Source of the DNA: Anaerohalosphaera lusitana
Lineage (GTDB): Bacteria > Planctomycetota > Phycisphaerae > Sedimentisphaerales > Anaerohalosphaeraceae
DNA length: 64,000 bases
Direction: 5' to 3'
Assembly: GCF_002007645.1 (NCBI RefSeq)
Contig: NZ_CP019791.1
Location: 496,001 to 560,000 of the forward strand
The notes beneath the pieces were generated by a model. The model was not told the DNA's origin, made no database searches, and was given only the letters and a program-made list of their open reading frames with translations. This document shows positions 9,983-16,525 of this stretch, piece after piece. The translations under genes were made by a program, and so were the position numbers. Each line of letters begins with the position of its first letter. Positions within the stretch are counted from its first letter, which is position 1.

Positions 9983-11947
9983 ATGCCCATAATAAAACTG
10001 ACCGACATTCATAAGTCTTTTGACCGAAACCCGCTGTTTTACGGGCTCAAGGCGCAGTTTTATCCGGGCGAAAAGGTCGGCCTGGTCGGTCCCAACGGCT
10101 GCGGCAAGACCACGCTGTTCAAAATGATCCTCTCCGAAGTCGACCCCGATGTAGGCGAAGTATCCGTCCGAAAGGGGCTGAAAATCGGCTATCTGCCCCA
10201 GGAACCCATCTTCTGCGGCGACAATACCGTCCTGCAGGAGATGCACGCAGGCCTTGCGGATCTGTTCAAGACCCAGAAAAAGATCGAGACGCTCGCCTCC
10301 CGCCTGGGTGAACTATCAGGCGACGAACTTGAAGAGGCGATGGCAGAATACGACCGCCTGAGTCATCTTTTCGAACGCAACGGCGGCTACACATACGAGG
10401 CCCGCATAAGGTCCATCCTACACGGCGTGGGACTCGAAGAGCCGCTTTACAATGCCAAAACCTCGACTCTCAGCGGCGGTCAGCTATCCCGGCTGGGTCT
10501 TGCGAAGGTACTGCTCAGCGAAACGGACATGCTTCTGCTAGACGAACCCACCAACCATCTCGACCTGCAGGCCACCGTCTGGCTTGAAAAATACCTCCGC
10601 AGCTACAACGGCGGCGCCATCATCATAAGCCATGACCGCTATCTGCTCGATAAGGTCACCGAAAAGATCGCCGAGGTCGATCAGGGCAAGTGCACGATCT
10701 GGCGCGGAAACTACAGCCAGTTTGTCGAAAACCGCCGGCTCGAACGAGATCAGCAGCAAAAACAGTATGAATCCCGCGTCAAGATGATCGAACAGACACG
10801 CGATTTCATCGCCCGCAACAAGAATCAGGAAGGCATGCGGGGCACCGCCCGAGGCAGGGCCAAACGCCTGGAAAGAATGCTCGACAGCGACCCGGATTTC
10901 CTGAGCAAGCCCACTGAAAAGAAAACCATGAAGCTCTCTTTCGCCGATGCGACAAGCCAGAGCTCACTCGTCCTCCGCTGTGAGGGCGTCTGTAAGTCCT
11001 TTGGGGACATATGTTTATTCAAGCATATGACCTTTGACCTTCTAGCAGGCGACAGGCTGGGCGTGACCGGACCCAACGGCACCGGAAAAAGCACGTTCCT
11101 CAAACTCGCCCTCGGCCGGGAAAAGTCTACCGACGGCCGGATCCGCATGGGAAAATTCCTCACTGTCGGCTACCTCGACCAGCAGGGCCAGGAACTCAAT
11201 CAGAACACCAACGTACTTGACGAGGCCCGCTCAGCAAAACCAGAACTGAGCACCGAAGTAGTCCGCGGCAAGCTCGGCGCGTTCCTTTTCACAGGCGACG
11301 ACGTCTTTAAGCAGGTATCAGAGCTCAGCGGGGGCCAGCAGAACCGCCTGATGCTCTTTAAGGTTATGCTCGCAGAACCGGATGTGCTCGTGCTCGACGA
11401 GCCGACCAACCACCTCGACATCGACAGCAAAGAGGTACTGGAAAATGCACTTCGCGATTACAACGGCACGATAATCGTGGTCAGTCACGACCGATACTTC
11501 ATCGACCGCGTTGTGGACAAACTGCTGGTTATCGGAGCTAACGACTTGGGAGAAAAGGAGTTAGGCAATTATGAGCTCGTGGAAGGCGAGGGCCCGCTCT
11601 ACAGCAAATATGCCGAGCAGGTGGAAAAAAGACAGGCGGAAGCGCTGGCAAAGGCACGGGCAAAGGATGACTCAGGCTCGAAAAAGGCCCGCAGATCCGG
11701 GTCCGCCACCAGTAAACCCAAGCCGAAAACACCACCGGAACTGCGAAAGTTCAACAAATACAGCGTCGAAGAACTTGAAGATTTCATCCTGGAAATGGAA
11801 GAAAACATAGAGAAACTGCAAGAAAAGTTCGGAAATGAGGACCTTTATAAGGACCCCTCCGCCGTCACGGACCTGCACGCAGAGGTGGACAAACACAAAG
11901 AGGAACTGGATATCCTCTATAAAGCTTACGAGTTCAGGACGGGCTGA
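9983..11947 (+). CDS. ABC-F family ATPase (Uup/EttA-like)
   Basis: A 654-residue soluble protein with two ABC domains and no membrane part, as in ABC-F translation factors that act on the ribosome. The first domain has GPNGCGKTT (about 37-45), LSGGQLSR and LLLDEPTNHLDL; the second has GPNGTGKST, LSGGQQNR and LVLDEPTNHLDI. The linker between the two follows the first Walker B and contains the charged stretch around RDFIARNKNQ. A C-terminal extension rich in Lys/Glu (about 550-650) looks like the coiled coil of Uup. Which subgroup it belongs to cannot be fixed by eye. It ends at the edge of the probable replication origin. Confidence 0.93.
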   Translation: MPIIKLTDIHKSFDRNPLFYGLKAQFYPGEKVGLVGPNGCGKTTLFKMILSEVDPDVGEVSVRKGLKIGYLPQEPIFCGDNTVLQEMHAGLADLFKTQKKIETLASRLGELSGDELEEAMAEYDRLSHLFERNGGYTYEARIRSILHGVGLEEPLYNAKTSTLSGGQLSRLGLAKVLLSETDMLLLDEPTNHLDLQATVWLEKYLRSYNGGAIIISHDRYLLDKVTEKIAEVDQGKCTIWRGNYSQFVENRRLERDQQQKQYESRVKMIEQTRDFIARNKNQEGMRGTARGRAKRLERMLDSDPDFLSKPTEKKTMKLSFADATSQSSLVLRCEGVCKSFGDICLFKHMTFDLLAGDRLGVTGPNGTGKSTFLKLALGREKSTDGRIRMGKFLTVGYLDQQGQELNQNTNVLDEARSAKPELSTEVVRGKLGAFLFTGDDVFKQVSELSGGQQNRLMLFKVMLAEPDVLVLDEPTNHLDIDSKEVLENALRDYNGTIIVVSHDRYFIDRVVDKLLVIGANDLGEKELGNYELVEGEGPLYSKYAEQVEKRQAEALAKARAKDDSGSKKARRSGSATSKPKPKTPPELRKFNKYSVEELEDFILEMEENIEKLQEKFGNEDLYKDPSAVTDLHAEVDKHKEELDILYKAYEFRTG

Positions 11948-12572
11948 CAGTACTGATAACGGTCCAAAATTTTGCCTATCTTAACAGCTTCGGCCGACAG
12001 TGGCTGTTATGCAACCTGTGGATAACCTGTAACTTCTGCTGTGACGCATGTGAGCCGCTCCTGTTAACAAACCGCCTTATCAGCATTGGTAACAAAGGTG
12101 CTGTGAATCTAACAGAGTTGCCATCAGCCAACCTAACAAGTTATCCACAGCCGTAAAGGCCTCTAAATATGCACCTAAGATCAGGTCGTCACACAATTTG
12201 CGGCTACAGCCCGTCAAACCTGTAACAAAGTAACTGCCCATATGAATACTAATACAAATTTCTTTAATAACTTATTATCTTATTCATCTACCGTAAGTAC
12301 CTGTGTGATTTTCGCCCTTACCAGTATTGATAACCGTGATCAGGACGTATAAAAACCATTTCGGTTCAGGGGCTGCCAAACTCTCATGGATCGACTGTTC
12401 GGTAATCTTACCGAGGCTCATTTGACGGCCCACAGCAGGGTACTAGAAAAATACTCCAAAGCAGCGAAAAAACTAGCCAAAGCAGCGGTTTTCGGGTAGA
12501 TTGTACGCCCGAAAGTGTACTTATTTGGAACAGTCAAAACGATATGGATTTTTCTCCAATGGTGAGGACGCT
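11948..12572. other. oriC: Probable chromosomal replication origin (oriC) upstream of dnaN
   Basis: This 625-base stretch has no gene. It holds two perfect DnaA boxes: TGTGGATAA at 12017-12025 (minus orientation) and TTATCCACA at 12141-12149 (plus). Around them the pentamer TAACA occurs six times on the plus strand (starts 11982, 12065, 12090, 12110, 12134, 12223), the middle four spaced 20-25 bases. AACCTGTAAC is repeated at 12024 and 12217. An AT-rich block at about 12241-12293 could be the unwinding element. A dyad lies at 12399-12414. It precedes dnaN-dciA-gyrB, a classic origin neighbourhood, though dnaA is not here. Confidence 0.7.
12399..12414. promoter_or_regulatory. Perfect dyad upstream of dnaN
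   Basis: TCGGTAA-TC-TTACCGA gives seven perfect pairs around two bases, 158 bases before the dnaN start and inside the origin-like region. It could be an operator or an origin-binding protein site; no known regulator consensus is matched with confidence. Confidence 0.4.
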
Positions 12573-13676
12573 ATGAAGGTAAAGTTTAACAGAGCTGCAT
12601 TGCAGGAAGCTTTGGGCCTGGTCACAAGCGTTGTGCCCAGCCGAACACCGAAACCGATCCTCCAGTGCGTACAGATCAAGACCGAAGTCGACGCGGTAAC
12701 GGTTTGCGCTACCGATCTGGAAGTTGGCATAAATTACCAGGTAACCCAGGTAGAGATCGAGGAGCAGGGCGAGATAGTTGTGCCCGCCGACAAACTCTCA
12801 TCGATCGTTCGAGAAAGTGTCGACGAAGTGATCGCCATCGAAGAATCCGAGGCGACCGTCGAGATCAAGGGCGCAGACAGCCACTTTACCATTTACGGCC
12901 ACGATGCTGACCAGTACCCGAGCGTACCCGGTTTCGAGGGCGACGCCCACTTCACCATCAGTCTCGGCAAGCTCCAGGAAGGCATCGAGCTGACCGTCTT
13001 CGCGGCAGCAAAAGAGAGCACCCGCTACGCTCTTAACGGCATACTCTGGGAAGTCGAAGGCAAAAAGCTCACACTCGTTGCGACTGACGGCAGGCGTCTG
13101 GCAAGATGTGCGGTCAATCTCGACACCGTCGAAAAAGACAGCATCCCGGACGGCCGGATCATAGTGCCCGCCAAGACGATGAACCTGCTAGACCGCGTAG
13201 GCGGAAGCGCCGATACGAAGGTCTCTGTGCGGTTCGTCGACAATCAGATCGTCATATCCTGCGGCCAGGTCATCATCAGCTCGAACCTGGTCGAGGGCAA
13301 CTTCCCGAAATACGAAGACATTATCCCCAAGGATTACACAAACAGCATAGGCCTGAACACCGACGCCGCCCTGAGCGCGGTGCGGCGTGCGGCTCTTCTG
13401 AGCAATGAAGACAGCAAGGGCATCAAGCTCGCTTTGTCTGACAACAAAATGACGTTCTCCAGCCGGGCTCCGGAAACAGGCGATGCCCAGGTAGAAATGA
13501 CGATCGACTACAGCGGGGGGGAAATGGAAATTGGTTTCAACCCAGCTTTCCTTATCGACGTATTGAAGGTTATAAAGGCGGATGACTTCAAGCTTGAGCT
13601 GGGCGATTCGGAAAGACCCGGCGTGATCAGGTCAGGCGATCAGTTCCTGTACATAGTTATGCCCGTAAACCTGTAA
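12573..13676 (+). CDS. dnaN: DNA polymerase III beta subunit (sliding clamp)
   Basis: DnaN forms the dimeric ring that holds the replicative polymerase on DNA. The 367-residue protein starts MKVKFNRAALQEAL, as usual for the family, and contains three similar clamp domains (about 1-120, 125-245, 246-367), including KESTRYALNGILWE and the C-terminal YIVMPVNL, close to the conserved MPMRL ending. The ATG at 12573 with GGTGAGG five bases upstream is preferred over a TTG at 12501 that would add 24 residues without family support. It is followed by dciA after 15 bases and then gyrB, forming a replication operon next to the probable origin. Confidence 0.97.
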   Translation: MKVKFNRAALQEALGLVTSVVPSRTPKPILQCVQIKTEVDAVTVCATDLEVGINYQVTQVEIEEQGEIVVPADKLSSIVRESVDEVIAIEESEATVEIKGADSHFTIYGHDADQYPSVPGFEGDAHFTISLGKLQEGIELTVFAAAKESTRYALNGILWEVEGKKLTLVATDGRRLARCAVNLDTVEKDSIPDGRIIVPAKTMNLLDRVGGSADTKVSVRFVDNQIVISCGQVIISSNLVEGNFPKYEDIIPKDYTNSIGLNTDAALSAVRRAALLSNEDSKGIKLALSDNKMTFSSRAPETGDAQVEMTIDYSGGEMEIGFNPAFLIDVLKVIKADDFKLELGDSERPGVIRSGDQFLYIVMPVNL

Positions 13677-13691
13677 GTTGAGGATATTACT

Positions 13692-16525
<2,834 letters not shown>

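Follow-up and report, generated by a model that had tools for sequence, protein, structure and literature searches.

In excerpts from one account of E. coli oriC, strong DnaA boxes head two opposed arrays of weak sites lying 2–3 bp apart, with 2 bp between weak sites and 3 bp between R4 and C1 (PMC6727663). For B. subtilis, the portion of PMC8287927 available gives a rule for the basal unwinding system by which the DnaA-trios have, no more than 16 bp away, a box carrying two mismatches or fewer, and excerpts from PMC6669920 describe a distal box that works with helical phasing, probably via a loop, and a face-of-helix rule shown by mutagenesis. Among the top-ranked literature matches listed, none is a paper on an origin in the planctomycete order considered here, most subscription journals being outside the coverage.

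The window, the whole 64-kb stretch of DNA analysed here, comprises bases 496,001–560,000 of a genome consisting of one contig of 4,250,973 bp (4.25 Mb). On the evidence of its sequence and that of its relatives, the gap before dnaN is very probably the chromosomal origin, oriC. Its elements and the genes that follow are listed in window coordinates.

12005..12051, minus strand: left DnaA array, with TGT half-sites at 12005, 12017 (head box), 12028, 12040 and 12049
12017-12025, minus strand: perfect DnaA box, TTATCCACA on that strand; extended form 12017-12032
12052..12111, no strand: centre between the arrays, containing TAACA 12065 and 12090 and a two-mismatch box at 12077-12085
12110..12149, plus strand: right DnaA array, with ACA half-sites at 12112, 12136 and 12147 (head box) and a degenerate one (TCA) at 12124
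12141-12149, plus strand: perfect DnaA box, inside the extended DnaA box TAACAAGTTATCCACA (12134-12149)
12167..12198, plus strand: spacer from right array to melting region, a possible bend site judging from relatives
12223..12227, plus strand: third TNACA half-site, +82 from the right box, at the melting-region edge
12241..12290, no strand: predicted DNA unwinding element, lowest in stability of all 50-mers in the 64-kb window
12246..12254, minus strand: three DnaA-trio-like triplets, picked out by eye (ATA CTA ATA on the plus strand)
12466..12503, plus strand: conserved block before dnaN, from an alignment of 44 upstream regions; perhaps a promoter, though this is unsure
12573..13676, plus strand: dnaN, sliding clamp (Pfam)
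13692..14078, plus strand: dciA, helicase operator (Pfam PF05258)
14036..16525, plus strand: gyrB, open reading frame as listed (Pfam and the list of open reading frames)

The gene order at the site is thus dnaN (start 12573), dciA, gyrB. An earlier note on this DNA had described two perfect, opposed DnaA boxes, six same-strand copies of TAACA, a repeated sequence, an AT-rich block and a dyad, all of which are present. The boxes (12017–12025, minus strand, and 12141–12149, plus strand) are 124 bp apart from start to start, and both fall within the dyad, a 26-nt inverted repeat (12016–12041 and 12125–12150) that is 77% complementary. The repeated sequence is AACCTGTAAC, found at 12024 and 12217. 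Plus-strand TAACA copies start at 11982, 12065, 12090, 12110, 12134 and 12223, the four from 12065 to 12134 following one another in steps of 25, 20 and 24 immediately left of the plus-strand box; two extra copies on the opposite strand, at 12005 and 12062, were absent from the earlier note. None of 5000 dinucleotide shuffles made from the gap contained two perfect boxes, and at least six TAACA occurred at a frequency of 0.0014. Since this 5-mer was picked after looking, and any 5-mer reaches six copies within 250 bp at a frequency of 0.058, the TAACA count alone is marginal; the box pair, unlike that count, is statistically solid.

Other scans of the region gave little. A sigma-70 scan of 11900–12620 found no promoter-like site, a terminator scan found one terminator-like site, near chance, and Rfam returned nothing up to E 1 in 11700–12700. 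The stretch from the melting region towards dnaN (12330–12487) is missing from most relatives in the alignment and includes a 20-bp direct repeat, 80% alike, at 12447 and 12468.

Within the genome the pair stands alone. Perfect TTATCCACA boxes number 23, and the sole pair less than 5 kb apart is the one in this gap; TNACANNTTATCCACA occurs without mismatch exactly twice, both times at the gap's two boxes, with one mismatch at two further places, and with two mismatches at 51 places in the whole genome. The cluster of DnaA boxes is unusual within its genome, as is looked for in an oriC.

For comparison, DNA upstream of dnaN was taken from members of the family and order and from named contigs, the named relatives (found via dnaN) being for the most part MAGs with the labels Anaerohalosphaeraceae, Sedimentisphaerales, Phycisphaerae or Planctomycetota, which places the host among the planctomycetes of this group. 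From 111 loci (L063–L173), 78 were kept after dropping those with less than 400 bp upstream or an identical last 300 bp, as well as L125 and L126; L127 (Clostridiales) was also removed from the counts, leaving 77, with its 10 shuffles remaining among the 780. An inverted pair of extended boxes was scored over 26 positions, with a threshold of 21. Scores of at least 21/26 were reached in 59 of the 77 upstream regions as against 0 of 780 shuffles (best shuffle 20), so that the search of related genomes suggested by the earlier note did recover the paired elements upstream of dnaN. From box start to box start, the spacing in these 59 regions is 121–125 bp in 45 and 111–114 bp in 11, with single regions at 116, 177 and 209 bp; the two classes differ by about one helical turn. 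The pair is below score in the other 18 regions of the 77, among them those of the closed genomes G041, G046 and G050.

Because the extended score itself includes TNACA, the regions were rescored on the nine-base boxes alone. This gave a unique best pair of at least 15/18 in 47 of 77, of which 38 are at 110–126 bp and nine are scattered; on each side, 35 of these 38 have an ACA 11 bp further in. Analyses of half-sites, TNACA and trios, tree and melting used only the 57 rows with a pair at 110–126 bp, and since these were chosen for having the pair, their figures describe the conserved form rather than all relatives. On a quick dnaN tree of the 57 rows (11 of them partial), spacing class requires three changes, two forced by well-supported branches. 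Judging from these sequences, the head-to-head distance seems able to change only by whole turns of the helix, as would be expected if two filaments had to meet, or form a loop, on one particular face.

Smaller sites follow the boxes inward at regular intervals. Relative to the right box, ACA is found at −5 (53 of 57 relatives), −17 (31) and −29 (9), and relative to the left box at −5 (53), −17 (32) and −26 (32), with another outside it at +18 (28); the background is about 2%, and the −5 position belonged to the selection score. The inward steps are 11, 12 and 12 bp in the right arm and 11, 12 and 9 bp in the left, and being mostly 11–12 bp they place the half-sites on about one face of the helix. 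All five enriched offsets of the left arm are present in the window (−12, 0, 11, 23, 32), as are +6, −5 and −29 of the right arm, where the −17 site reads TCA. Beyond the right box, a TNACA starting at +60 to +120 is found in 56 of 57 relatives, compared with 5 of 55 in a control stretch, and 39 start at +79 to +82.

The earlier note had taken the TAACA copies for a possible second, lineage-specific initiator site. Their conservation is uneven. The copy at 12134 has an ACA at the same place in 53 of 57 relatives, that at 12223 is the third conserved TNACA, and that at 12110 has a register shared with 9 of 57, while those at 11982, 12065 and 12090 have no conserved register among the 57. As an independent array, TAACA was rejected on the any-5-mer frequency of 0.058 and on four of its six copies being without strong register. 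In G266 (L278, ~1500–1625), which is a planctomycete but from another class, the phased positions are occupied, as judged by eye, by DnaA boxes that are complete or nearly so; because these full or near-full boxes keep the same 11–12 bp steps, TNACA can be understood as a degenerate DnaA half-box. TNACA, and TAACA with it, reads best as a degenerate DnaA half-site and not as another initiator's array, which fits better than the second-site claim, unsupported in the form given.

The AT-rich block, at 12241–12290, has the character of an unwinding element, and a survey of 1.53 Mb sampled from the genome contained one equally unstable stretch elsewhere. Counted from the start of the right box, it begins at +100; among the 57 relatives, the onset of the least stable 50-mer falls between +85 and +135 in 48 and between +94 and +99 in 37. 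In the melting regions of the same 57 rows CTA occurs 96 times vs 33 for TAG, and runs of at least three [ACT]TA are present in 26 of 57, compared with 14 on the antisense strand and 2 in the stretch outside the left box. These figures are suggestive of DnaA-trios, the triplets being only moderately strand-specific. In the window, 12246–12254 holds, by eye, at least three consecutive trios with a middle A, the form given by the rule in the portion of PMC8287927 available. Between the right array and the melting region, WAANNNNTT is present at +20 to +65 in 48 of 57 relatives vs 3 of 57 in a control stretch, and is not in the window. A bend site may lie in this interval; the genome has one protein of the HU/IHF family.

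Set against E. coli oriC as it appears in those excerpts, the gap is alike in having inverted strong boxes that head weak arrays, in steps of 11–12 bp, with the exceptions that one left-arm step is 9 bp and one right-arm site is degenerate. It differs in having no strong central box like R2, the best being 12077–12085 with two mismatches; in a melting region about 100 bp from the nearest head, where that of E. coli is immediately beside R1; in a head spacing that falls into two classes one turn apart; and in weak sites cut down to TNACA or ACA. With the B. subtilis basal unwinding system, as far as the available portion of PMC8287927 describes it, it shares trio-like triplets bordering the melting region. 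Unlike that system, the hallmark of the window's order is the opposed pair, and within 16 bp of the window's triplets there is no box with at most two mismatches (none of four), only the TAACA at 12223. Among experimental results in the sources excerpted, the distal-box phasing of B. subtilis (PMC6669920) comes closest to the two spacing classes. G266 has the same two opposed arrays in 11–12 bp steps directly upstream of dnaN, with a pattern spacing of 112; the window's order differs in having TNACA where G266 has complete or near-complete TTATCCACA boxes.

The pair was also sought INDEPENDENCE FROM dnaN, with a pattern for the pair alone that requires exact bases and is blind to dnaN. It matched 31 of 161 order genomes, at one place each, and its reversed control matched none; since exact bases are needed, the lack of a match in the remaining 130 does not mean that the structure is absent. 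In the phylum it matched 8 of 392 genomes: seven are among the 10 sampled from the order, and the eighth, G266, is the one match among 382 others. Spacings were 112–113 in 11 loci, 115 in one and 122–126 in 19, with none of the 31 at 116–121, though the pattern allowed it. Among 31 pattern loci (30 from the order plus G266), dnaN is present at 25, and six are without dnaN in the stretch examined. In the closed genome G046 the pair is at 1.927 Mb (L275, C1:1,926,862) and dnaN at 1.134 Mb, 0.79 Mb apart, and in closed G041 the pair (L274, C1:3,159,887) is 13.6 kb from dnaN, so that origin and dnaN have apparently become separated in these genomes. The pair's neighbours are ThiF-family genes in G046 and DNA cytosine-methylase genes in G041. 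In closed G050 the pair was found neither by upstream scoring nor by the dnaN-blind pattern.

GC skew was compared in two genomes. In G046, covered by 20 samples amounting to one eighth of the genome, the cumulative minimum falls in samples centred at 1.93–2.08 Mb; a half split gives 0.051 at the pair and 0.022 at dnaN, with a best of 0.056 at 2.12–2.24 Mb, and over a 20-kb stretch the skew reaches its lowest point at 1,925,618, which is 1.2 kb away from the pair. This skew, from one thinly sampled genome, is the best discriminator between an origin and dnaN regulation. In the window's own genome (60 samples) a half split placed at 508 kb gives 0.109, on a par with the best (525–575 kb), with a permutation p of 0.003 when samples are treated as independent. 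The profile is blocky, with a plateau at 300–575 kb, and when fitted freely the switch comes out near 435 kb; its sign often flips between neighbouring 20-kb samples, as in an inversion-shuffled genome. No clear switch of the kind the earlier note had proposed to look for is seen elsewhere, though a local cumulative minimum at 424,624 is 83 kb from the gap. Own-genome skew is supportive but blunt, favouring the neighbourhood and not the exact place. The contig start was rejected as the origin, its split being weaker (0.060 vs 0.109) and its nearest perfect DnaA box more than 80 kb off. No dif site was found; a consensus pattern gave one exact match, at 2,556,463, which looks coding by eye and was left unused.

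An oriC next to dnaA is common, though not universal. Neither of the two dnaA genes is at the origin proposed here, one lying at 470 kb and the other at the contig start; dnaN adjoins instead. The canonical DnaA (C1:470363–471682, L001) has the motif GGRDHTTV and no Pfam DnaA_N match, and its gene is more than 35 kb from the nearest perfect DnaA box. The second (C1:1–1407, L002) has GGKNHATV and a DnaA_N domain. If the contig is circular, a two-mismatch extended DnaA box (C1:4,250,662–4,250,677) precedes the second dnaA by some 300 bp, perhaps for autoregulation. By identity, both types are found in 32 of 39 family genomes, and at least part of the second in 58 of 59 order genomes. Among 55 frames in 54 second-DnaA loci the motif is KNHATV in 51, KHHATV in one and GGRDHSTV in one, with no match in two; similar divergent frames occur in the class members G449, G236 and G162. 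In E. coli DnaA the contact residues given in the part of PMC7561715 available are R399, P423, D433, H434, T435 and H439, and in a register drawn by eye positions 433, 435 and 439 are occupied in the second DnaA by N, A and L. The two dnaA types are adjacent in G001 (C17:31757–34532, L214) and apparently also in G002 (C116). All four single-contig genomes of the order sample (G000, G041, G046, G050) start at the second dnaA and not at the proposed origin, so a zero point based on dnaA would mislead.

The sites might instead be a DnaA-regulated dnaN promoter or a DnaA-titrating site. This would suit the position of dnaN directly downstream, its presence at 25 of the 31 loci found with the dnaN-blind pattern and the conserved block that precedes it, but six of those loci are without dnaN in the stretch examined, the G046 pair is 0.79 Mb from dnaN with the sampled skew minimum beside the pair, and neither a promoter nor a titration site needs a stretch of such low stability at a constant distance, all of which makes it quite improbable. 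Still harder to credit is a former origin, with the active one elsewhere, for instance near 424 kb. The local cumulative minimum at 424,624 and the half-split plateau of 300–575 kb would agree with it; against it, the box pair, the five left-arm positions without exception and the melting region are all preserved, the genome has no other perfect-box pair within 5 kb, the split at the contig start is the weaker one, and inversions would give just such a blocky skew. That the gap is an origin, as the earlier note had thought probable, is strongly supported by the unique box pair, the conserved geometry, the conserved place of melting and the G046 skew taken together.

A different question is which protein reads the weak sites. 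The phased TNACA half-sites could be read by the second, KNHATV-type DnaA rather than the canonical one, which would make two initiators. Both types are in most family genomes (32 of 39) and at least part of the second in nearly all of the order (58 of 59); its recognition motif is changed yet conserved (KNHATV in 51 of 55), at base-contact residues as given in that part of PMC7561715; and G266, with complete boxes at the phased places, has no KNHATV frame in the one frame read. However, three genomes with no second DnaA detected, incomplete assemblies all (G022, G005, G033), keep TNACA or near-TNACA (L067, L085, L080, respectively), and canonical DnaA on weak sites explains the same facts, so this reading appears unlikely. 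The same doubt attaches to its fuller form, an order-wide two-initiator origin in which canonical DnaA would sit on the TTATCCACA heads and second DnaA on TNACA, the mixed filaments meeting across a centre that evolves in whole turns.

With the gap as an origin and TNACA as DnaA half-sites, initiation might run as follows. DnaA would settle first on the two TTATCCACA heads, and ATP-DnaA would then be recruited along the phased weak sites, giving two filaments that grow towards each other, with the TAACA repeats serving mainly as their half-sites. The spacer would bend, perhaps with the genome's one HU/IHF-family protein, and DnaA would move onto one strand of 12241–12290 and keep it open. Helicase loading would come next, and DciA is encoded just after dnaN.

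For a planctomycete order, this amounts to an origin proposal with exact coordinates for its elements, built on a pair that a sequence pattern can pick out with no reference to dnaA or dnaN. Spacings in two classes one helical turn apart, with about three changes between them on the tree, are natural evidence for the face-of-helix rule, and conservation of the second DnaA poses directly the question of one initiator or two.
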